Shown: positions 1 through 9,206 of the stretch, piece after piece | How positions within the stretch are numbered: position 1 is the first letter of the stretch | Layout: every line of letters begins with the position of its first letter | From: JBFLYE01 sp040756715 [NCBI: bacterium] | GTDB lineage: Bacteria; UBA9089; UBA9088 | Length of the DNA: 9,206 nucleotides | Direction of reading: 5' to 3' | Assembly: GCA_040756715.1 (NCBI GenBank) | Contig: JBFLYE010000213.1 | Span: 1 to 9,206 of the forward strand | Notes under the pieces: model-generated | Databases searched by the model: none | What the model was told of the DNA's origin: nothing | The model's input: only the letters and a program-made list of their open reading frames with translations | Made by a program: the position numbers and the translations under genes

Positions 1-553
1 AAAGGTCGATTATCCCTCCCCTTATTGATAGGTCAAGGGAGGATATAGGCTCATCGGCAATAAGAAGTTTTGGTTTTATTGACAAAGCCCTTGCAATGGC
101 TATCCTTTGCTTTTGTCCACCTGAGAATTGATGGGGGTATTTATTAAGGCTTTCTCTTTTGAAGCCAATTATAGAAAGAAGTTCATTTATCCTTTTTTCC
201 TTATCTTCTATTTTATGAATAATAAGGGGCTCTTTTAATATCTCATAAATCCTCTTCCTTGGGCTTAAGGAGGAATCTGGGTTTTGAAAGACAATAGAGA
301 TGTTTTTTCTTGCCATCTTTGAGGAAACCTCTCCTCCATCAAAATAAACCTTTCCAGAGGTAGGAGGGGTAAGATTTAGGATAATCCTTGCCAGGGTTGA
401 TTTTCCAGAGCCACTCTCTCCAACCAGCCCCAATATTTTTCCTTTTTCTAAAGAAAAACTTACACCATCAAGGGCTTTTATTATCCCCCTTGTCTTTGAA
501 AAGAAACCACCCTTTATGAGAAAATATTTCTTTAATTCCTTTACCTCAAGCAT
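1..553 (-). CDS. Oligopeptide/dipeptide ABC transporter ATP-binding protein, OppF/DppF type (C-terminus beyond window)
   Basis: Energises uptake of peptides (or a related solute such as nickel) by hydrolysing ATP on the cytoplasmic face of an inner-membrane permease. The 184 visible residues start MLEVKELKKYF and hold the nucleotide-binding domain in order: Walker A GESGSGKST (45-53), Q-loop Q90 in VFQNPDSSLSPR, signature FSGGQ (143-147; usual LSGGQ), Walker B LLIADEP (163-169) and D-loop SSLD (171-174). The switch histidine and the C-terminal oligopeptide-binding extension lie past position 1. The long insert between KKYF and ALDGVSF, and the FQNP..SLSPR block, are typical of the OppF/DppF half rather than OppD/DppD. 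ATG at 553 is chosen because a TATAAT box lies 8 nt upstream; there is no Shine-Dalgarno. Permease and binding-protein genes are not in view, so the substrate is unknown. All ten arginines are AGA/AGG. Confidence 0.9.
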   Translation of the reverse strand, partial: MLEVKELKKYFLIKGGFFSKTRGIIKALDGVSFSLEKGKILGLVGESGSGKSTLARIILNLTPPTSGKVYFDGGEVSSKMARKNISIVFQNPDSSLSPRKRIYEILKEPLIIHKIEDKEKRINELLSIIGFKRESLNKYPHQFSGGQKQRIAIARALSIKPKLLIADEPISSLDLSIRGGIIDL

Positions 554-561
554 TGGCACAT

Positions 562-591
562 ATTATAATCGCATTACAAACAGCTTATCAA
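562..591 (-). promoter_or_regulatory. Promoter of the ABC ATPase gene, apparently leaderless
   Basis: Read on the minus strand, TTGATA (591-586) is followed by an 18-bp spacer and a consensus TATAAT (567-562). Only 8 nt separate the -10 box from the ATG at 553, so transcription should start at or next to the start codon. This is the best two-box sigma-70-like match in the window. Confidence 0.65.
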
Positions 592-614
592 GGTTTGATA
601 AAAAAACAAAATAA

Positions 615-644
615 TTGCTTTTTGCTACAATAAATTATTATAAT
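615..644 (+). promoter_or_regulatory. Promoter of the coiled-coil/moaC unit, apparently leaderless
   Basis: TTGCTT (615-620, weak -35), an 18-bp spacer and TATAAT (639-644) end 6 nt before the ATG at 651. Because the -35 box covers the alternative TTG start at 615, that longer reading would not be in the transcript. Together with the minus-strand promoter this makes 554-650 a compact divergent control region. Confidence 0.55.
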
Positions 645-650
645 GGTCTT

Positions 651-1508
651 ATGAAGGATAAATATCTTTTTTTGCTTGTTATTCTTCTTTTTGTTGTGGG
701 CATAGGTTTATTCTTGCAGATATTTTTTCTTTTGGAGAAGCCAAAGATAAGCTCTGAAAGGAAAAAAATTGAGACAATAGTTTTAGAAAACAGCGAGCTT
801 AAAAAAGGGATAAATAGGCTTTTGGCAGAAAGGACTACTTTTTCTACCCAGATTGCTTCTCTTATTGAAGAAAATAAGAGGAAGGACGAACAAATAAAGA
901 TGCTTGTCTCAAGGAAGCCAAAGGAGATTGTGGTTTTTAAGCCAGATATTAAGCTTGAGGAAGAAAGAGAGAGGCTTATTCTGGAGAATGAGCATTTTAG
1001 CAAGATAAACAGGGAATTGGACAAAAAGATAGAAAAGGCATCAAGAGAGCTTTTAGCAAAGGAAGAGGGAATAAAAAGCCTTGAGCAAGAGATAAAAAAT
1101 AAAGAAAGAGAAAAAGGCATTGTTATGGCTGAGATGCAAGATGCTTTCTTGGATACGCAAGCCAAAGAAAGGGAGGAATCCCTTGAAAGGGATAAAATTG
1201 CCTTAGCTCAGAAAATCCTTTCCCTTCAGGATGAGATAGCAGAGCTTTCAAAGAAAAATGGAGAGCTTTTAGAAAAAAATTCCCTTATTTTAAAAGAGAT
1301 GGATGACCTGAAGGAAAAGCTTGCTATTTCCGAGGAGGAAAAGGAGAGAATAATTGAGTCTTCAAAGAGGGAAATTGAGGATATTCTTAAGAAAAAAGAG
1401 GAAGAGGTTTCAAAGATAAGTGTTGAAAAAGGGGAAGATAAAAAAAGGGCTCATAAGCGGTCTTTGGCAGGGAATTTCTTGAGCATGTTTTTATTATGGA
1501 AGAAATAA
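651..1508 (+). CDS. Membrane-anchored coiled-coil protein of unknown function
   Basis: I do not recognise a family. The 285-residue product begins MKDKYLF and has one hydrophobic segment at about residues 5-28, best read as an uncleaved signal anchor. A highly charged Lys/Glu-rich helix with heptad-like leucine and isoleucine spacing follows from about 35 to 260, then a basic patch (DKKRAHKRS) and a short hydrophobic tail NFLSMFLLWKK. This predicts a bitopic membrane protein with a long coiled coil; the low-complexity sequence makes homology by composition unreliable. An upstream TTG at 615 is open in frame but overlaps the -35 box, so ATG 651 is preferred; a TATAAT box lies 6 nt before it. 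The 3' end overlaps the moaC start by 13 nt in another frame, so the two are probably co-transcribed. A role in molybdenum cofactor synthesis does not follow from this. Confidence 0.75.
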   Translation: MKDKYLFLLVILLFVVGIGLFLQIFFLLEKPKISSERKKIETIVLENSELKKGINRLLAERTTFSTQIASLIEENKRKDEQIKMLVSRKPKEIVVFKPDIKLEEERERLILENEHFSKINRELDKKIEKASRELLAKEEGIKSLEQEIKNKEREKGIVMAEMQDAFLDTQAKEREESLERDKIALAQKILSLQDEIAELSKKNGELLEKNSLILKEMDDLKEKLAISEEEKERIIESSKREIEDILKKKEEEVSKISVEKGEDKKRAHKRSLAGNFLSMFLLWKK

Positions 1509-1996
1509 GGCTTTCTCATATTGATAGAGAAGGAAGGCCAAAGATTGTTGATATATCAAGAAAAAAAGAGACCCTGCGCAGAGCTATTGCCTCCTGTAAG
1601 ATTATAATGAAAAAGGAGACCTTAAAGCTCATAAAGGAGGGAAAAGCAAAAAAGGGTGATGTTTTAAGCGTTGCTGTAATTGGAGGGATAGAGGGGGTTA
1701 AAAAGACAGGAGAGCTTATCCTCCTCTCCCATCCATTAAATATTGAGGGAGCAGATGTAAGGTTTTTCTTTGAGGAGGATGGAATAAGGATAGAACAAGA
1801 GGTATGGCTTTATGGAAAGACAGGGCCTGAGATGGAAGCCCTTACCGGATGTGCTTTAGCTGCCTTAAATATTTATGACATGTGTAAGGCTGTTGATAAG
1901 GAGATGGTGATTTCCAATCTCTCTCTTATCTCAAAAAAAGGTGGAAAAACAAAGAAATTCAGTATCTCCTCACCTTTTTTAAGCCAGACCAGCTAA
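1496..1996 (+). CDS. moaC: Cyclic pyranopterin monophosphate synthase MoaC
   Basis: Cytosolic enzyme of molybdenum cofactor synthesis. It converts the 3',8-cyclo-GTP intermediate made by MoaA into cyclic pyranopterin monophosphate. The 166-residue length is normal for the family. Visible family blocks are the N-terminal HIDREGRPKIVDIS, KKGDV (52-56), SHPL (78-81, with the substrate-site His at 79; the usual residue before it is Cys), GKTGPEMEALT (107-117), YDMCKAVDKEMVI (127-139) and a C-terminal GGK (149-151). The EMEALT and DMCKAVDK blocks carry the conserved active-site acids and lysine. ATG 1496 lies inside the end of the coiled-coil gene (13-nt overlap) and has no clear Shine-Dalgarno, so translation is probably coupled. 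No other moa or moe gene is present in the window. Confidence 0.95.
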   Translation: MEEIRLSHIDREGRPKIVDISRKKETLRRAIASCKIIMKKETLKLIKEGKAKKGDVLSVAVIGGIEGVKKTGELILLSHPLNIEGADVRFFFEEDGIRIEQEVWLYGKTGPEMEALTGCALAALNIYDMCKAVDKEMVISNLSLISKKGGKTKKFSISSPFLSQTS

Positions 1997-2015
1997 ACAA
2001 ATGACTAAAATTGAA

Positions 2016-2025
2016 AATTCAAAAT
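2016..2025 (-). repeat. ATTTTGAATT-family intergenic repeat, single copy
   Basis: AATTCAAAAT on the plus strand is the reverse complement of ATTTTGAATT, the core shared with the repeats at 8001-8054 and 9159-9191. It lies 20 nt after the moaC stop codon. Confidence 0.45.
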
Positions 2026-2041
2026 AATTTAGAGGAACGAA

Positions 2042-2090
2042 TATTATTTCCTGCTTCGTGCTTAATCAGATATTGTTTCATGCTTCGTGC
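2042..2090 (+). repeat. Two-copy imperfect direct repeat, 29-bp period, with core TGCTTCGTGC
   Basis: The 20-mers at 2042-2061 and 2071-2090 match at 18 of 20 positions and share TGCTTCGTGC exactly. They sit in the moaC/bioF gap. Two copies are too few, and the spacing too short, for a CRISPR array. A dispersed repeat or a binding site for a dimeric protein is possible. Confidence 0.6.
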
Positions 2091-2144
2091 GTTTCTTTCA
2101 TTTCAACTTCCTTTCTTCTTCTCGTCTACCCACATACAGCGAAG

Positions 2145-3269
2145 CTAAACACTACCACATACCTTTAAAGCATCTACAAGCTTATCCAGAACCCCCTTTT
2201 TATGATAAAACGACAAAGAAAGCCTTATCCTTGATGTATTTTTTAAGACAGTGGGTGGTCTTATGGGAAGTGCCCAAAACCCTCCTTCACAAAGATATTT
2301 ACTTGCCTTAATTGCCCTTTCATCCTCTTTTAAAATAATAGGGATTATTTGGGTCTCAGAGGTTATGAGAAACCCAGAATCCAAAAGCCTTTTTCTTAAA
2401 TATTTGGCATTCTCCAATAAAACCTTCCTTCTTTCTGGTTCTTCCTTTAACAATTTTAAAGCCTCAAGGTTTCCTGCAATAATACAGGGAGGAAGGCCTG
2501 TTGAATAAATAAATGATCTCGCCTTGTTTATAAGGAAATCTATCATTTCTTTATCACCCACAACATATCCACCAAAACCTCCCAAAGCCTTGCTAAATGT
2601 TCCCATGATAAGCTCTGTTTTTTTACTTAAGCCTTTTTCTCCCACCAACCCTTCTCCATTTCTTCCAAATATCCCGGTTGCGTGTGCCTCATCAACCAAG
2701 AGCTTAAAGTTATACCTTTCCTTCAGGGATACAATATCAGAGAGAATTGCCTTATCTCCATCCATACTAAAAACAGATTCTGTAACCACCCAGATATTTT
2801 TTGCTTTATTCTTTTTAAGGAGGCTTTCAAGATGCTCAATGTCATTATGCTTAAACCTTAAAAGATGGGCAGAAGAAAGAATAGCACCATCTATTATGCT
2901 TGCATGGGAAAATCTATCGGCAAGGATAAGGCTTTCTCTGTCACATATTGCAGATATTATTCCAAGGTTTGCCTGATATCCAGAATTAAAAACAAGACCT
3001 TTTTCCTTTTCTTTTAGCTTTGCAATTTCCTCTTCAAGCATATGATGAATCTCATAATCTCCACTCAAAAGCCTTGAGGCACAACAACCTATTCCAAATT
3101 GTTCTACTGCATTTTTACAAGCCTCTTTTAGCCTTGGATGAGAAGATAGCCCAAGGTAATCATTGGAGGAAAAATCAATATATTCCCTTCCTTTAATATA
3201 GATTTTTCCATCCCTCCTTTTAAAACAGGGCTTTAATGTCCTATGAAACTCTTGCTTAAACCCTTTCAT
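2145..3269 (-). CDS. bioF: 8-amino-7-oxononanoate synthase (biotin synthesis)
   Basis: PLP enzyme that condenses pimeloyl-ACP (or pimeloyl-CoA) with L-alanine, releasing CO2, to give 8-amino-7-oxononanoate, the first ring-forming step of biotin synthesis. The 374-residue product has the alpha-oxoamine synthase blocks: FSSNDYLGLSSHP (33-45), GCCASRLLSGDYEIHHMLE (61-79), VFNSGYQAN (93-101), SHAS with the PLP-stacking His122, VDEAHATGIFGRNGEG (192-207), and TFSKALGGFGG (224-234) with the PLP lysine at K227. The C-terminal PIRPPTV...SRIRLSLS block favours BioF over 2-amino-3-ketobutyrate CoA ligase (Kbl), its nearest relative. ATG 3269 overlaps the prmC stop (ATGA, 4 nt), with no separate Shine-Dalgarno, so translation is probably coupled to prmC. 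No other bio gene lies in the window. Confidence 0.88.
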   Translation of the reverse strand: MKGFKQEFHRTLKPCFKRRDGKIYIKGREYIDFSSNDYLGLSSHPRLKEACKNAVEQFGIGCCASRLLSGDYEIHHMLEEEIAKLKEKEKGLVFNSGYQANLGIISAICDRESLILADRFSHASIIDGAILSSAHLLRFKHNDIEHLESLLKKNKAKNIWVVTESVFSMDGDKAILSDIVSLKERYNFKLLVDEAHATGIFGRNGEGLVGEKGLSKKTELIMGTFSKALGGFGGYVVGDKEMIDFLINKARSFIYSTGLPPCIIAGNLEALKLLKEEPERRKVLLENAKYLRKRLLDSGFLITSETQIIPIILKEDERAIKASKYLCEGGFWALPIRPPTVLKNTSRIRLSLSFYHKKGVLDKLVDALKVCGSV

Positions 3270-4060
3270 TGCATACCAAGAATTAATATTCTTTCTATAT
3301 CAGAATAATCTTTAACAATTCTTTTGAGGGAAAAATTATGATTTTTTGCAATTTCTGAAATAGCCTTCCTTTTCCCTTGCCCAATTTCAAGGATTAAAAG
3401 CCCATCCTTTTTGAGCAAATGCCTTGCTTCCTCAAATATCCTTGGATAAAAATCCAACCCAGAAGGACCTCCGTCAAGGGCTATCTTTGGCTCATATTCT
3501 AAAACAAGGCCTGTCTCTACATAGGGTGGATTAGAGACAATAATATCAAATTTTCCCTTTATTGCACTTAAAATTAAGGAGCGGATAAAATGTATTCTAA
3601 CATTATGCATCTTTGTATTCATTTTGCAAACAAGAAGGGCTTTTTCTGATATATCCGTTGCAAGGACACAAGAGTTAGGAAGAAATTTTTTTATAGATAT
3701 GGCAATTACACCCGAGCCACATCCTATATCAATTATTCTTGGACTTTTTATCTTTTCTGCCTCTTTTATTGCCTCGCTTACTAATATCTCTGTTTCTTTT
3801 CTTGGAATTAAAACATCCTTGGTTATCTTGAACAAAAGACCCATAAACTCTGTCTGTCCTGTTAGATATTCCAAAGGAACCCCCTTTTTTCTTTCCAAAA
3901 TCAATTTTTCAAAGCAAGAAATTCCATCTTCTTTTAGCTCATAATCTGGGTTTTTGTATAGCTCTATTATTGGCTTGTTTAGAACAAAAGAGAGGAGGAT
4001 TTCTACCTCAAGGCTATTAAGGCTAAGCCTTCCTTTAACTAAAGCCTCTTGTATTTTCAT
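3266..4060 (-). CDS. prmC: Peptide chain release factor N5-glutamine methyltransferase PrmC (HemK)
   Basis: Cytosolic S-adenosylmethionine-dependent enzyme that methylates the glutamine of the GGQ motif in release factors RF1 and RF2, improving translation termination. The 264 residues (E. coli protein 277) comprise a small helical N-terminal domain followed by a Rossmann methyltransferase. Landmarks are GVPLEYLTGQTEFMGLLF (60-77), VLIPRKETEILV (83-94; usual IPRPETE), SAM motif DIGCGSG (111-117), ATDIS (134-138), catalytic NPPY (177-180), EPKIALDGGPSGLDFY (190-205) and LEIGQG (224-229). NPPY and the substrate-recognition blocks separate it from BioC, the methyltransferase one might expect beside bioF. 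ATG 4060 has TACAAT 7 nt upstream and no Shine-Dalgarno. prfA, its frequent partner, is absent here. It overlaps bioF by 4 nt in an apparent two-gene operon. Confidence 0.92.
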   Translation of the reverse strand: MKIQEALVKGRLSLNSLEVEILLSFVLNKPIIELYKNPDYELKEDGISCFEKLILERKKGVPLEYLTGQTEFMGLLFKITKDVLIPRKETEILVSEAIKEAEKIKSPRIIDIGCGSGVIAISIKKFLPNSCVLATDISEKALLVCKMNTKMHNVRIHFIRSLILSAIKGKFDIIVSNPPYVETGLVLEYEPKIALDGGPSGLDFYPRIFEEARHLLKKDGLLILEIGQGKRKAISEIAKNHNFSLKRIVKDYSDIERILILGMQ

Positions 4061-4067
4061 GTTATGG

Positions 4068-4073
4068 ATTGTA
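4068..4073 (-). promoter_or_regulatory. -10 box of the prmC-bioF operon, apparently leaderless
   Basis: TACAAT on the minus strand ends 7 nt before the prmC ATG (4060). No convincing -35 box lies 16-19 bp upstream. The call rests on position and on the same layout at the other transcript-leading genes. Confidence 0.45.
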
Positions 4074-4195
4074 AATTTTAAATTCCCATTTTCCCCTATT
4101 TTATTTAAATAAAAAAATTGTTAGTGGCAATAGATTGTAAAATTATAAAATAAGAGATATTTATGATGATTTTAAATACATTAAAAGATAAAATC

Positions 4196-4202
4196 AAGGA
4201 GG
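4196..4202 (+). promoter_or_regulatory. Strong Shine-Dalgarno of the decayed secreted-protein gene
   Basis: AAGGAGG lies 5 nt before the ATG at 4208. It is the only full-strength ribosome-binding site seen before a start codon in this window, and it marks 4208 as the original start of a gene now broken. Confidence 0.7.
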
Positions 4203-4207
4203 AAAAA

Positions 4208-4645
4208 ATGAAAAAGATTTTTTGGTTTTGGTTTTAGGGGTAGTAGGACCCTCTCATACCCCTTCCAGGCAATATTATTTTTGCTGGGATTATCTATAGC
4301 ATTGAGCTTTTTGATGCAAACAATCAACCCTACGGAACACAATCTTTACCAGGCCAAGCAATCATTTACCTCCCTTATTCCGATAAGGACAATAATGGCA
4401 TCCTTGATGGGACAAAGATAAGGGAAGAAACCCTAAAGATATACCAATGGGATAACATTAGCTGGATAGCATTGCCTACCTCAATTGATAAGATAAACAA
4501 TATAGCCTTTAGCCCGGTTCCCCATTTTTCAACCCCTACCTTAGGGGGAGGAATCTTTGCCGAAACAAACAATGATGCCTTTGCTTATCCTAACCCCTGG
4601 AGGAGGGCGGAAAATGGGAAATTGCAATTGTTTGAGCTGTGCTAA
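4208..4645 (+). pseudogene. Remnant of a secreted/surface protein gene: broken signal peptide plus C-terminal domain fragment
   Basis: Behind a strong Shine-Dalgarno the frame reads MKKIFWFWF and stops at 4235; two more TAGs follow at 4241 and 4244. One extra T in the T6 run would give MKKIFLVLVLGVVG, a typical signal-peptide start, but that frame stops soon after. From 4247 the original frame is open to TAA at 4643-4645 (132 codons). It has IIYLPYSDKDNNGILDGT, an EETLKIYQWDNISWIALP block, PVPHFSTPTLGGG, and finally AYPNPWRRAENGKLQL. I read this as the end of a large extracellular protein: a beta domain with an Asp/Asn-rich, possibly calcium-binding loop, then the opening of a YPNPW-type C-terminal sorting or FlgD-like domain cut after about 20 residues. 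The evidence therefore suggests at least two lesions near the start, probable loss of the gene body, and loss of the 3' end against smc. It could instead be an assembly artefact. Confidence 0.7.
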
Positions 4646-7600
4646 ACTTTATTCTTAAGCCTCATAGAGAGGACTTTTGAAACACCAGGTGTCTCCATTG
4701 TTATTCCATAGATTGTATCAGCTATCTCTATTGTCCTCTTATTATGGGTTATTATAAGGAATTGGGTCTCCTTTGAAAACAGCTTAACAAGCTCAACAAA
4801 CCTTTTGATATTTGCCTCATCCAAAGAGGCATCAACTTCATCAAGAAAGCAAAAGGGCGCTGGTTTTACCATAAACAAAGAGAACAAAAGGATAATAGCA
4901 AGCAATGTTTTTTCTCCCGAAGATAACAAAATAAGCCCCTTTTTCCTCTTTCCCGGTAGCTCTATCTCCATATCTATCTTTCCATTATTCATAACAATCC
5001 CTGCATTTCCTCCGCCAAATATCTTTAAAAAAATGGAGGAAAAATTATCATTTATCTTTATAAAGGTTTTACCAAAGACCTCCTTTGCCTTTTTGTCAAG
5101 CTCTCCTATAAGATAATAGAGGTCATCTTTTGCCTTGTTCAGGTCAGAAAGCTCTTGTTCATAAAAGGAAAGCCTCTCCTTTATTTTATCATACTCATAA
5201 GCAGACGAAAGATTTACATTAGAATAATGCAAAAGCTCTCTTTCTATTTTCTCTGCCCTTTCTTTGTCAAGCTTGTTTTCCATCTCCTTTATCCTTTCTC
5301 CATAATCAGAAACAATAGAATTTATTCTCTCTGAAAGAAGGGAGAGAGAAAGAGAAATATCCGTTATTTCTTTATTCTTCTCCTCCCTTATTCTATAAAG
5401 GCTATTAATCTTATTTTCCAATTCCAAAATGCTTTTTTCTTCTTCCAGAATAGAAGAAGAGGCTTGTGCTTTTGTCTTTTCAGAGCTTGTTTCTTCATCA
5501 AGCACCAAAAAAAGGGCTTTTTTATCTTTTAATAACCCCTCCTTAATAAGGATTTGTTCTTTTTCTTTTTCCCTTGCCTCTTTTATAACAGCCTCCTTTT
5601 CATAGGATATTTCTTTTTGCTCTAGTTTCTGTTTCTTCTCCCTTTGCAAAAGAAGGTTTAATTTCTCCCTTTGCAATTCCATTTTTCTCTCCTCATCCAT
5701 CAAGTCTTTGAGCTCTGTGTTTATTTCATTTAGCTTTTGTTCTAACAATTTTACATTTTCATCACTTTCTTTCTCTGTAAGGGCTGATATCTCTTTATAT
5801 ATTTCATCCTCCCTCTCTTTAAAGAAAAGGATTTCATCCTCTATTCTTTGTATTTTTAAGGAGAGGCCATCTTCATTTCCTTTTTCTCTTTCCTCCTCTT
5901 GTAATAGCCTTTTAAGGCTTGCTTCATCTTTTAAAAGCAATTTCTCGCTTATTTCTAATTCCTTAACTATGGCCATTTTTTCTTTTTGCCCATCGCTTCT
6001 TTTTTTCTCTAATTCTTTTAATTCACCTTCCAGCTCAATCAAGCGATTTTTTAGAGAATCTACCCCTTTTTTCCTTGATAACAAGCCTATCTCATCACCT
6101 ACCTCAATTATCCCATTCTCTATCTTAATACCATCAATTGTAACTACCTTCCATCCAGCAGAAGAAAATTTTAAGGCTGTTTCAATATCCTTTACAATCA
6201 AAAGATTGGAGAATAGCCAATTTATACCCTCATCCTTTATCTTAATAAAGTCTGAAGCCCTTCCAAGGACATTCTGGTGCTCTGGTGCTAGTAGGCTGCT
6301 CTGGTGCTCTGATGCTCTTTTCTTTAAGACAATAAATATTCTTCCTAGATTAACCTTCTTTGTATGAGAAATTAACCCTTTTATCTCATCCTCGTTTGCT
6401 ACTATAGAACAAAGCCTATCTCCTAAAAATCCATCTATTGCCTTTGCAAATTCATCCTTTACCTCTATCATTTTCTCCAGAATAGATGTTTCTTTTATAG
6501 CCCCATCCTTTATAAACCCTTCTATTACCTTTTTTTTAAGGGGAAGGCTTGAGAGAGAAGAAATCTTATGCTTGCAAGAGACCTCTTCCTCCCTCATCTC
6601 ATCAATCATTTTGTTTATCTTTGCCTCTTTGGCTAAAATCTCATTTTCTCTTGCTTTAAGAGCATTAAAATTTCCCCTTTCTTTCTCTATTTTTTCCTTA
6701 AGGCTTTGTATTTGTTTTAACAATTCATCCCTTTTTAAAATTATTTCTAGCCTCTCCTTGTTTAGCTTTTCTACATCTTCACCTAGTCTTTTTGTTCTAT
6801 TTTTGATATTTCTAATCTCCCTTTCTCCTTCATCCCTTTTTCCCTTTATCCCTGCCTTTCTGCTTAAACCATCAATAAGCTCATTCTTTAGGCCATCCTC
6901 AATCTCTTGAAGCCTTTTTATTTTCTCTTTTATTTCTAAATTTTCTTCTGGTAAACCAATAGCCATTTTTTCAGCCTCTATGTTTAAAAGCTCATCCTTT
7001 AAGCTTTTTTCTTTTGTCAAAAGTCCTCTCTCCTTTTCTTTGAGGCTAGATATTCTCTCAGAAAGAAAGACGAGCCTTTCTTCTTTTCTTGCTATCTCTT
7101 CCCTTAATTTTTCCTTCCTTTCCCTTATTTCAAAAAGGAGGTCGTCTTTTTGTTTTAGTCCTTCTACGAGCCTTTTAAAATTCTCCCTTTTCCCCTTTAA
7201 GATGGCCTCATTTTTTATAATTTCATCGTTTATCCCCTTTTCTTCCTTCTCCTTTAGGCTTAATTCTCCTTTTTTTCTGTGATATTCCTCCCATAGGGTA
7301 TGATATTTATAAACATTAAGCTCATCCTTTAGCCTCTTATACCTTCTCGCCTTTGATGCCTGGTATTTTAAGCTATCTCCCTCTCTTTTAAGCTCTGCCA
7401 TAATATCAGATACCCTCGTAATATTCTCTAATGTTTTTCTTAAATTTCCCAAAGCCTCTTCCTTTTTTACCCTATAGCCTGCAATGGCTGATGCCTCTTC
7501 AAAAAGGCCTAATCTTTCATCAGGGCTTTTTAGTAGTAGCTCTATTTTTTCCTGTGTCATTAAGAAATAGCCATTCTGGGAAAGGCCTGTATCTAATAAC

Positions 7601-7977
7601 AATCTATTTATATCCTTAAGTCTACAGGGTTTTTGATTGAGCATATATACAGATTCTCCTTGAGGAAATATCGTTCTTGTAATCTTTACCTCAGAAAAAG
7701 GGGTTTTAAGGAGGTTATTGCTATTATCTAATAAAATAGAAACCTCTGCTATGCTGGTTGGCTTTTCCATCTCTGCTCCGTGAAAGATAAGGTCTGACAT
7801 AGATTTTGCCCTGAGAAGATGGAGATTTTGCTCACCCAAAACCCACCTTATCGCATCACAAATATTGCTCTTTCCGCAGCCATTTGGTCCAACAAAGAGT
7901 GTCAAGGGGTGATCAAAGGTAAATTTCTCCCTTTTAAATGACTTAAAGCCTATAAGTTCAAGGGAAGAGAAAAACAT
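4642..7977 (-). CDS. smc: Chromosome segregation protein SMC
   Basis: ATPase core of the bacterial condensin (with ScpA/ScpB) that loops and organises the nucleoid for segregation. The 1111 residues are slightly short for the usual ~1150-1190. Order: N-terminal head with FKSFKREKFTF and Walker A GPNGCGKSN (30-38); RWVLGEQ (44-50); outgoing coiled coil about 165-480; hinge about 485-630; returning coil about 640-960; C-terminal head with signature LSSGEK (1018-1023; usual LSGGE), Walker B FCFLDEVDASLD (D1046, catalytic E1047) and switch TH (1077-1078). All ATPase elements are present, so it looks functional. A run of 8-bp DNA repeats encodes residues about 553-569 of the hinge. ATG 7977 has TATAAT 7 nt upstream and no Shine-Dalgarno. 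The stop codon overlaps the end of the opposing remnant by 4 nt. No scpA or scpB is nearby. Confidence 0.96.
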   Translation of the reverse strand: MFFSSLELIGFKSFKREKFTFDHPLTLFVGPNGCGKSNICDAIRWVLGEQNLHLLRAKSMSDLIFHGAEMEKPTSIAEVSILLDNSNNLLKTPFSEVKITRTIFPQGESVYMLNQKPCRLKDINRLLLDTGLSQNGYFLMTQEKIELLLKSPDERLGLFEEASAIAGYRVKKEEALGNLRKTLENITRVSDIMAELKREGDSLKYQASKARRYKRLKDELNVYKYHTLWEEYHRKKGELSLKEKEEKGINDEIIKNEAILKGKRENFKRLVEGLKQKDDLLFEIRERKEKLREEIARKEERLVFLSERISSLKEKERGLLTKEKSLKDELLNIEAEKMAIGLPEENLEIKEKIKRLQEIEDGLKNELIDGLSRKAGIKGKRDEGEREIRNIKNRTKRLGEDVEKLNKERLEIILKRDELLKQIQSLKEKIEKERGNFNALKARENEILAKEAKINKMIDEMREEEVSCKHKISSLSSLPLKKKVIEGFIKDGAIKETSILEKMIEVKDEFAKAIDGFLGDRLCSIVANEDEIKGLISHTKKVNLGRIFIVLKKRASEHQSSLLAPEHQNVLGRASDFIKIKDEGINWLFSNLLIVKDIETALKFSSAGWKVVTIDGIKIENGIIEVGDEIGLLSRKKGVDSLKNRLIELEGELKELEKKRSDGQKEKMAIVKELEISEKLLLKDEASLKRLLQEEEREKGNEDGLSLKIQRIEDEILFFKEREDEIYKEISALTEKESDENVKLLEQKLNEINTELKDLMDEERKMELQREKLNLLLQREKKQKLEQKEISYEKEAVIKEAREKEKEQILIKEGLLKDKKALFLVLDEETSSEKTKAQASSSILEEEKSILELENKINSLYRIREEKNKEITDISLSLSLLSERINSIVSDYGERIKEMENKLDKERAEKIERELLHYSNVNLSSAYEYDKIKERLSFYEQELSDLNKAKDDLYYLIGELDKKAKEVFGKTFIKINDNFSSIFLKIFGGGNAGIVMNNGKIDMEIELPGKRKKGLILLSSGEKTLLAIILLFSLFMVKPAPFCFLDEVDASLDEANIKRFVELVKLFSKETQFLIITHNKRTIEIADTIYGITMETPGVSKVLSMRLKNKV
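6274..6316 (-). repeat. Cluster of 8-bp repeats inside the smc hinge
   Basis: Plus-strand CTGGTGCT occurs at 6274-6281, 6282-6289 and 6301-6308, with CTGATGCT at 6309-6316: two tandem pairs separated by 11 bp. Read on the smc strand it stays open and gives a duplicated EHQ (SEHQSSLLAPEHQN). It is locally GC-richer than the rest of smc. Confidence 0.75.
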
Positions 7978-7984
7978 AAGAGGT

Positions 7985-7990
7985 ATTATA
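7985..7990 (-). promoter_or_regulatory. -10 box of smc, apparently leaderless
   Basis: A consensus TATAAT on the minus strand ends 7 nt before the smc ATG (7977). The upstream 20 bp are AT-rich repeat sequence, and no convincing -35 stands out. It implies that smc can be transcribed separately from galT. Confidence 0.5.
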
Positions 7991-7997
7991 CAAAATC

Positions 7998-8054
7998 AAG
8001 AAATTTTGAATTTTAAATCCATTTTATAATTCAAAATTCACCATTCAAAATTTT
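7998..8054. repeat. AT-rich inverted repeat of the ATTTTGAATT family between smc and galT
   Basis: AAATTTTGAAT (8001-8011) is exactly complementary to ATTCAAAATTT (8043-8053). A further copy, AATTCAAAATT, lies at 8028-8038. AAGAAATTTTGAATT (7998-8012) recurs exactly at 9156-9170. The stem would be long but weak, and there is no T-tract typical of a terminator. Confidence 0.6.
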
Positions 8055-8076
8055 ATAAAGGGTTGTGGAATTAACT

Positions 8077-9072
8077 CTATATTTTTACCTCCCTCAAAAA
8101 TTTTCCACTCTCCTCTGGAAGGGAGGTATTGATGTACATCCCAGAGCCAAGCTCAAATCCAGCTGACTTTCCCATCCTTGGGACAATGCTTATATACCAA
8201 TGGAAATAATTGACATTTGAGCAATCAATGGGCGCCTGCCTTATGACATAGTTAAAATCCGGGTCAGATAAGCCAAAATATAGCCTTTTTAAGAGGTCTA
8301 AAAGGATGTTGCTTAAGCTTTCCATCTCAAGATCATTTATCTCAAAAAAGCTTGCAAAATGCCTCTTTGGAAGGAGCCAGATGTGAAATGGTGAGAATGC
8401 AGAATAGAGAACAAAGGCAACAAATTCTTTGTTTTCAATGATAATTCTTCTTCCATCAGCTATCTCATCCTCAATCATCTGGCAGAATACACAGGTATGG
8501 TGGTCGTCATAATATCTCATTGCCTCCTCAAGCCTGGTTCTTATGTGATTGGGAACAACCGGTGTGGCAATGAGTTGGGAGTGGGGATGCTCAAGGGATG
8601 TGCCAGCAGCTTCGCCGTGATTCTTAAAGATGATGACAAGGTTTATCCTTTTATCCTTTGCTATTTCTAAATTTCTCTCCTTATAGGATGTGATAATGTT
8701 AAGGACATCACTCTCTAGAAGGAGGGCTGTGGTAAGGTTATGCTTTGGTGTCTCAACAATCACCTCATGATAGCCAAATCCAGGAAGGCTTCTTACCAAG
8801 CCTGAAAGATAGGGCTTTTTCCAGGGAATATCGGGAAGCAAAGCAGAAAATTTATTTGGGACAACCCTTAATTTCCATCCTTTATCATCTTTGATAGAAA
8901 AGAGCTCTGGTGGTGTTTTGTCTTCATTCCCAGGGCAGAATGGACAGGTTTGGACAAATTCTAAAGCTGGCTTTTTCTCTTGTTTCTTTACAAAATCCTC
9001 AGGCCTTTTTGCCCTCTCTGTAGCAATGACAACCCATTCTTTGGTAGCAATATTCTGTCTTAATTCTGGCAT
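8077..9072 (-). CDS. galT: GalT-family nucleotidyltransferase (galactose-1-phosphate uridylyltransferase or ADP-glucose phosphorylase-like)
   Basis: HIT-superfamily enzyme that moves a nucleotide between sugar phosphates through a nucleotidyl-histidine intermediate; classical GalT swaps UMP between UDP-glucose and galactose-1-phosphate in the Leloir pathway. The 331 residues show RQNIATKEWVVIATERAKRP (5-24), first zinc Cys pair CPFC (C43, C46), H111 in VETPKH, and GTSLEHPHSQ (157-166). H162 is the likely zinc ligand and H164 the nucleotide-accepting histidine. A second CxxC (C194, C197) with H238 and H291 suggests a second zinc site, as in the ADP-glucose phosphorylase-like branch and not in E. 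coli GalT. HPHSQ in place of HPHGQ points the same way. The substrate is therefore unsettled. ATG 9072 has TATAAT 8 nt upstream and no Shine-Dalgarno. smc follows 99 nt downstream; no gal genes are nearby. Confidence 0.87.
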   Translation of the reverse strand: MPELRQNIATKEWVVIATERAKRPEDFVKKQEKKPALEFVQTCPFCPGNEDKTPPELFSIKDDKGWKLRVVPNKFSALLPDIPWKKPYLSGLVRSLPGFGYHEVIVETPKHNLTTALLLESDVLNIITSYKERNLEIAKDKRINLVIIFKNHGEAAGTSLEHPHSQLIATPVVPNHIRTRLEEAMRYYDDHHTCVFCQMIEDEIADGRRIIIENKEFVAFVLYSAFSPFHIWLLPKRHFASFFEINDLEMESLSNILLDLLKRLYFGLSDPDFNYVIRQAPIDCSNVNYFHWYISIVPRMGKSAGFELGSGMYINTSLPEESGKFLREVKI

Positions 9073-9080
9073 TTCATTAA

Positions 9081-9109
9081 ATTATAGTATCTTCCATTAC
9101 TTAGTGCAA
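9081..9109 (-). promoter_or_regulatory. Promoter of galT, apparently leaderless
   Basis: On the minus strand a weak -35 TTGCAC (9109-9104), a 17-bp spacer and a consensus TATAAT (9086-9081) end 8 nt before the galT ATG (9072). The expected transcription start falls at or beside the start codon. Confidence 0.55.
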
Positions 9110-9155
9110 AAATAGATAGGGTTGTGTTTATCTGTTAAAAATTCATCCACCTTTT

Positions 9156-9191
9156 AAGAAATTTTGAATTCTAAATTTTGAATTTTGAATT
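9156..9191 (+). repeat. Array of ATTTTGAATT repeats upstream of galT
   Basis: AAATTTTGAATT occurs at 9159-9170 and 9173-9184, and AATTTTGAATT at 9181-9191, giving offsets of 14 and about 7 nt. The 15-mer AAGAAATTTTGAATT (9156-9170) is identical to 7998-8012 at the other end of galT. No gene starts between here and the window end. Confidence 0.65.
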
Positions 9192-9206
9192 GAAGGTTTA
9201 AGTTTT

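Follow-up and report, generated by a model that had tools for sequence, protein, structure and literature searches.

Positioned -10 boxes before first genes suggest leaderless initiation beside Shine-Dalgarno-led starts in a low-GC bacterium

In this study, we have examined the 9,206-nucleotide (nt) contig JBFLYE010000213.1 of JBFLYE01 sp040756715 (the window), in which five genes, encoding an ABC transporter ATPase, a coiled-coil protein, PrmC, SMC and GalT, have a -10-like box 6 to 8 nt before the ATG. In the source genome (G000) and in a second genome of the same genus (G001), the box holds a fixed distance from the start codon, is concentrated before first genes and often has a -35 element 17 or 18 nt upstream; the layout is conserved in relatives. 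As far as can be judged from sequence, these boxes are very probably sigma70-type -10 elements that give leaderless or nearly leaderless mRNAs, which coexist with Shine-Dalgarno (SD)-led starts.

A sigma70-type promoter, composed of TTGACA, a spacer of 17 or 18 nt and TATAAT, would thus be set tight against the gene. At the usual distance from -10 to +1, a gap of 6 nt between the box and the start codon makes the A of the ATG the +1 position, and from this distance we infer that RNA polymerase would start at that A or up to approximately 4 nt before it. Translation of at least four window genes (those for the ABC ATPase, the coiled-coil protein, SMC and GalT) would then begin on mRNAs with no leader or almost none. 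More generally, the first gene of a transcript would often be leaderless, and the genes downstream would use an SD sequence or coupling.

A positioned -10 box with a -35 element

Direct reading of the window confirmed the five boxes, four of them exact TATAAT, that had been reported in the original prediction (Table 1). It also bore out the statement that these genes lack an SD sequence: none of the 4-mers AGGA, GGAG and GAGG was found in the 20-nt stretch that precedes the start codon of the ABC ATPase, coiled-coil, prmC, smc and galT genes.

The source genome assembly comprises 1.55 Mb in 218 contigs and is 96% complete; the window is its contig C213. Gene calling covered 81 stretches of the source genome, 634 kb in all with the window counted in (GC content, 37%; approximately 41 kb of N), and a 416-kb sample of G001; it used coding potential only and left upstream signals unused. 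Genes that were open at a contig end, had fewer than 80 nt upstream or had N upstream were dropped, which left 512 starts from 549 genes in the source genome and 334 from 348 in G001. A gene was classed as first if it was divergent or if over 60 nt separated it from the preceding gene on the same strand; genes with gaps of 31 to 60 nt and contig-edge genes, a group that includes the galT gene of the window, belong to neither the first nor the operon class. Contigs L001 to L020 had been picked from the hit list of a promoter-pattern scan, which biases the sample, and contigs taken by number were counted apart. Since the enrichment of TATAAT itself makes a reversed-pattern control too weak when used alone, it was supplemented with a control at far distances.

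An exact TATAAT at a gap of 6 to 8 nt was present before 17 of the 205 first genes of the source genome, compared with 0.79 expected from the control distances (0.0038 per start for the three positions; Poisson P = 2e-17). The remaining 3-nt bins out to 65 nt held 0 to 4 TATAAT each, and only 2/227 operon-internal genes had the box at this gap. The signal recurred in G001, where 10/138 first genes had an exact box at the same gap (expected, 0.93; P = 6e-8) and a further eight had one at a gap of 9 to 11 nt. These counts provide the genome-wide positional peak by which the original prediction was to be checked, and they uphold its view that the layout is unlikely to be due to chance. A looser box, in which TA...T was kept and at most one mismatch to TATAAT was allowed at a gap of 5 to 11 nt, preceded 56/205 first genes in the source genome (controls, 12 to 17) and 43/138 in G001 (controls, 5 to 14); before operon-internal genes of the source genome it was found in 8/227 (controls, 5 to 18; mean, approximately 10).

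The looser box was also enriched on the contigs taken by number, where it preceded 26/113 first genes (controls, 6 to 9) and 16/43 divergent genes (controls, 1 to 5; mean, approximately 3); among operon genes the count was 4/138 (controls, 2 to 10; mean, approximately 5). When contigs that had not been picked (window included) were set beside the picked ones, exact TATAAT at a gap of 4 to 9 nt was seen in 8/83 (control, 3) and 9/87 (control, 0) starts, and the looser box in 20/83 (control, 8) and 22/87 (control, 5); for the exact box, the contigs that had not been picked were the weaker set. A sample of G003, a member of the same order, had one exact box at a gap of 6 to 8 nt among 22 first genes, too few for a test.

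The character of the box is that of a promoter. The source genome and G001 together have 99 box-bearing first genes, a set that includes four window genes and not galT. In 44 of them, a -35 element (at most one mismatch to TTGACA) lay at a spacing of 17 or 18 nt: there were 21 at 17, 23 at 18 and none at 16 or 19, and every other spacing from 4 to 39 nt had 0 to 3. By subset, the -35 was present at these two spacings in 18/26 cases on by-number contigs, 7/26 on picked contigs and 16/40 on contigs C1 to C20 of G001, and in this respect the picked contigs were weaker than the by-number ones. For boxes farther upstream of first genes (gap, 26 to 50 nt), the corresponding counts were 5/27, 3/23 and 9/42, as would be the case for leadered promoters. 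Within the window, a TTGnnn -35 at 17 or 18 nt accompanies three of the five boxes, those of the ABC ATPase, coiled-coil and galT genes. A promoter scan, in which each genome was searched with matrices trained on the other, gave a gap of 6 nt as the commonest value for strong promoters. Strong intergenic promoter hits (score of at least 12) with a same-strand start within 200 nt had a gap of 5 to 11 nt in 40/87 cases in the source genome and 30/65 in G001, proportions that the matrices, having been trained on box-bearing starts, may inflate by favoring near-start promoters.

Conservation in relatives and rival explanations

Orthologs retain the box layout while the flanking sequences diverge. 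The box of the coiled-coil gene lies at a gap of 6 nt in G000, G001 (77% protein identity) and G002 (41%), and that of the ABC ATPase gene at a gap of 8 nt in both G000 and G001. For smc, the gap is 7 nt in G000, 6 nt in G001 and 8 nt in G003, with TATATC at a gap of 6 nt in G002; for galT, it is 8 nt in G000 and 6 nt in G001, where a second galT-like gene has the box at a gap of 5 nt.

For the phylum, we scanned 19 genomes for TTGA-N19/20-TATAAT-N5-9-ATG (near) and for the same pattern with N25-29 (far). The five genomes of the order gave near/far counts of 30/7, 62/14, 38/11, 28/4 and 25/7 (ratios, 3.5 to 7; each P ≤ 0.0011). Ratios were 1.7 to 3.0 in family f8 (58/26, 69/23, 36/19 and 27/16; P = 3e-4, 8e-7, 0.015 and 0.06) and 1.4 to 1.7 in family f7 (29/19, 22/16, 24/14 and 21/13; P ≥ 0.07). 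In families f3, f4 and f5 the counts were 5/3, 6/8, 18/13, 19/19 and 11/9 (ratios, 0.8 to 1.7; none with P < 0.05), and the f6 genome G008 gave 9/1 (P < 0.05) from few matches. Without the -35, the near/far ratio was 1.39 to 1.59 in the order, 1.41 in G005 and 0.84 to 1.19 in the other 13 members of the phylum; in other phyla, the median was 0.96 and the maximum 1.31, as calculated for the 49 of 99 genomes with at least 80 far matches. G005, which belongs to another family of the same phylum, had 191/135 without the -35 and 19/19 once it was required, a discordance that is unexplained; perhaps this genome has leaderless promoters with another -35. This near/far gradient lies inside one phylum, so that relatives could be compared to trace where leaderless initiation was gained or lost.

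Two genomes from other phyla, G034 and G037, had TATAATN5-8ATG in 46 and 18 cases, compared with 23 and 3 for N25-28, and are further leaderless candidates. The spacers in G034 are GC rich, such as TATAATCCCGCCCATG.

Three other explanations of the box were weighed. The promoters might be real and the annotated ATG unused, with translation beginning at a downstream in-frame codon behind a short leader. This alternative draws on the fact that starts were called from coding potential only and that many first genes have neither an SD sequence nor a box, and it is improbable given that the protein alignments with orthologs begin at residue 1 for smc (G001, G002 and G003), galT (G001), the coiled-coil gene (G001 and G002) and the ABC ATPase gene (G001), with the box at about the same distance from the aligned ATG. 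Very improbable is a role of the AT-rich motif as a translation signal, of the protein S1 or Kozak-like kind, rather than as a promoter. According to PMC5397173, leaderless promoters cannot simply be taken as the cause of such an AT-rich bias, for which S1 sites may be responsible; such a signal should precede operon-internal genes too, where the box is at or near the control level, and it would have no need for TTGACA 17 or 18 nt upstream. Chance is the least credible of the three: TATAAT is common in AT-rich genomes, the sample has 37% GC, and some of the 50 outside genomes with small counts have higher near/far values (G034, 46/23; G077, 67/40), yet the 17 starts compared with 0.79 expected, the fixed gap, the first-gene concentration, the restriction of the -35 to 17 or 18 nt and an order-wide ratio above the maximum of the 49 outside genomes with at least 80 far matches refute it genome-wide and leave it possible for single cases such as prmC.

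Leaderless and SD-led starts side by side

The near box does not account for all first genes. Its excess over the control amounted to 0.30 of divergent genes on by-number contigs and 0.37 on picked contigs of the source genome, and to 0.47 in G001; for all first genes, the values were 0.16, 0.23 and 0.22. The original prediction had expected no SD peak, and here it failed, since an SD peak is present at a gap of 6 to 8 nt in both first and internal genes. SD 5-mers at a gap of 3 to 11 nt preceded 25/205 first genes (controls, 0 to 7) and 34/227 operon genes (controls, 10 to 18) of the source genome. An SD 4-mer at the same gap was found in 1 of the 99 box-bearing starts. Start codons barely differ in the source genome, with ATG in 51/55 box-only and 87/92 SD starts. 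A single search of the source assembly with one 16S 3'-end/anti-SD pattern gave no matches.

Several observations weigh against a reading of the boxes as leaderless promoters of first genes. In G001, an exact TATAAT at a gap of 5 to 11 nt was present before 4/156 operon-internal genes (controls, 0, 0, 0, 1, 0 and 3) and the looser box before 11/156 (controls, 1 to 8; mean, approximately 6), and therefore the restriction to first genes is imperfect. On by-number contigs, the exact box was modest in number, at 8/113 first genes (controls, 0 to 2). The galT-like gene of G002 has TATAAT at a gap of 12 nt, those of G005 and G006 have none, and the ABC ATPase matches shown from G002 to G006 had no TATAAT within 70 nt before the aligned start; several of these matches have longer N termini. 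The G000 and G001 samples share 88 reciprocal best pairs, of which 33 were in a first-like position in both genomes; the box was present in both members of 4 of these pairs, in one only of 7 and in neither of 22 (Fisher P = 0.04). Both smc and prmC lack a -35 in the source genome, and the coding-potential gene caller will misplace some starts. Finally, 117/205 first genes of the source genome and 71/138 of G001 lack both signals, the near box and the SD 4-mer.

Because the excess of the near box is partial, SD sequences are also used and more than half of the first genes of the source genome have neither signal, leaderless initiation is, by these counts, one major mode that stands beside an SD route and is not the sole default. 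As far as sequence goes, the original prediction that a low-GC bacterium initiates in this way is well supported both genome-wide and for all box genes but one, with the word "default" withdrawn.

A leaderless start from a near -10 is an already known way of initiating translation. The survey by Zheng et al. (2011; PMC3160421) found leaderless genes whose -10 lies close to the start codon in 207 of 953 genomes, and its low-GC users include Mycoplasma and the Lactococcus-Streptococcus group. The table of that survey gives an average of 4.2% of genes for Firmicutes, in 56 of 209 genomes with a signal, and its text gives 18.3% for five Mycoplasma. The present boxes resemble the TA-led genes described there, in which TAnnnT lies approximately 10 to 12 nt before the start codon and which occur beside SD-led genes, as well as the fuller TAtAAT of low-GC Firmicutes. 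The lineage studied here is a different one and, unlike Lactococcus, which is said in the same source to lack a -35, commonly has a full -35. Likewise, in Deinococcus-Thermus, a -10 motif a few base pairs before the open reading frame drives leaderless mRNA, as experiments showed (PMC12340547); adding a -35 raised expression when the spacing was 17 bp, whereas 22 bp had no such effect. Most -10-motif genes in that group lack a classical -35, in contrast to the 44/99 with a -35 reported here. GeneMarkS-2 (Lomsadze et al., 2018), as summarized in PMC9581028, predicted leaderless transcription in 21.6% of bacterial species and in up to 40% of transcripts per genome, and its leaderless class, like the present genome, mixes leaderless and SD-led starts. 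Literature searches for leaderless starts in candidate phyla gave no paper that, as judged by title, was on the subject.

To these cases, the present data add a low-GC lineage in which promoters with both elements intact, -35 and -10, stand at leaderless spacing. They also suggest that start callers relying on SD sequences may misplace some starts in this lineage.

The galT repeat and other features of the window

Upstream of galT, the sequence from position 9083 onward, as far as the contig reaches, belongs to a copy of a dispersed repeat that resembles a miniature inverted-repeat transposable element (MITE). In the sample, 20 pairs of repeat ends (one right end counted twice) lie 157 to 269 bp apart; the commonest length is approximately 241 bp, and 10 of the 20 pairs measure 240 to 245 bp. 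The ends read TATAGTTAATTCC... and ...GGAAGATACTATA and form imperfect inverted ends of the TATAGT type. Right ends with at most two mismatches number 97 in the source genome, 2 in G001 and 0 in 17 other members of the phylum. The repeat is short and present in many copies, with inverted terminal repeats and no room for a transposase, as are MITEs and Correia-like elements, and its ends alone suggest that a TA target is duplicated. A longer element with the same ends was considered and rejected, since the single long pair in the sample consists of two neighboring short copies (no search for a transposase was made).

In the copy examined, each end reads outward as TTG(CAC/TAA)-17-TATA, and therefore the -35 and four -10 bases of galT are element derived, with the flanking AT completing TATAAT. 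Because the galT gene of G001 has TATAAT with no repeat end seen in the first 70 upstream nt, we infer that the repeat inserted into or beside an older galT box and left the box intact. In these features it resembles the Correia Repeat Enclosed Element of Neisseria (PMC2649163), which is short and mobile, has TATAG ends and brings with it a -35 together with part of a -10, the rest of which can be supplied by the insertion site, as in the Black promoter. It differs from the Correia element in having another sequence, another host, a length of approximately 241 bp and promoter-like sequence at both ends, and is not a member of that family.

By the counts available, the repeat is not the source of the genome-wide box signal. 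For 28 of the 38 right ends in the sample, the following gene on the same strand can be seen, and among these genes galT alone has a called start at a gap of 5 to 11 nt; furthermore, the same signal is present in G001, where right ends number two. A wider proposal is possible and rather doubtful: that throughout the order leaderless starts from complete sigma70 promoters are the commonest first-gene mode, being less frequent or undetectable in the other families of the phylum, and that in one species such start regions are being rewritten by a high-copy-number miniature transposon, each end of which has an outward promoter and which has restored TATAAT at galT.

Further copies of the repeat are present on L002, L008, L011, L016 to L018, L020, L021, L203, L205, L209 and L216. 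Since copies are often at contig ends, the repeat probably breaks the assembly. Four repeat ends have a called ATG inside them (ATGGAAGATACTATA), in frame into the flank, at L002:4456, L002 ~110, L021 ~15640 and L203 ~9180; these are candidates for a fusion or a truncated gene.

The prmC gene requires separate treatment. The original prediction had counted all five box genes as transcript leading; prmC was probably not an original leader. In G001, its start lies within the smc end and is not preceded by a box, and prmC is therefore down-weighted as an independent example. In the window, smc and prmC are separated by an extra segment, which contains a decayed plus-strand gene that has an SD sequence, an ATG at 4209 and a stop after nine codons. 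This gene is secreted-protein-like, retains its SD sequence and start and has a C-terminal NPWR stretch; beyond its stop is a stretch related to L173:68-457. The TACAAT of prmC may be a fresh promoter or chance.

Table 1. Genes, promoter elements and repeats of the window. Gap, nt between box and ATG; spacer, nt between -35 and -10.
Feature	Position	Strand	Remarks
ABC transporter ATPase gene	2..553	-	ATG at 553; runs off window; Pfam PF00005, E 6e-37
ABC ATPase -10, TATAAT	562..567	-	Gap 8 to ATG at 553
ABC ATPase -35, TTGATA	586-591	-	Spacer 18
Coiled-coil protein -35-like, TTGCTT	615-620	+	Spacer 18
Coiled-coil protein -10, TATAAT	639..644	+	Gap 6 to ATG at 651
Coiled-coil protein gene	651..1508	+	Coiled coil as read from the sequence
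moaC	1496..1996	+	Pfam PF01967, E 2e-47; overlaps coiled-coil gene
Class I/II aminotransferase gene	2145..3269	-	Pfam PF00155; overlaps prmC end
prmC	3266..4060	-	Pfam MTS and PrmC_N
prmC box, TACAAT	4068..4073	-	Gap 7 to ATG at 4060; without -35; weak candidate
Extra segment between smc and prmC	4061..4641		~580 bp; absent in G001
smc	4642..7977	-	ATG at 7977; Pfam SMC_N and SMC_hinge
smc -10, TATAAT	7985..7990	-	Gap 7; without -35 in source genome
galT	8077..9072	-	ATG at 9072; Pfam PF01087, E 1e-19
galT -10, TATAAT	9081..9086	-	Gap 8; first four bases are the repeat element end
galT -35, TTGCAC	9104..9109	-	Spacer 17; within repeat element
Right part of MITE-like dispersed repeat	9083..9206	-	Cut by contig end

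A Pfam search with the coiled-coil gene product gave no family at an E value of 0.001. Neither a box nor an SD 4-mer was found upstream of moaC or of the class I/II aminotransferase gene, the latter of which we take to be BioF/KBL-like. The intergenic stretches 8002-8080 and 1998-2137 resemble dispersed repeats found elsewhere in the source genome: they include filler of the AATTCAAAATT type, which is common to the interior of the MITE-like repeat, and a second family that is present in L043 and, in G001, in L239.

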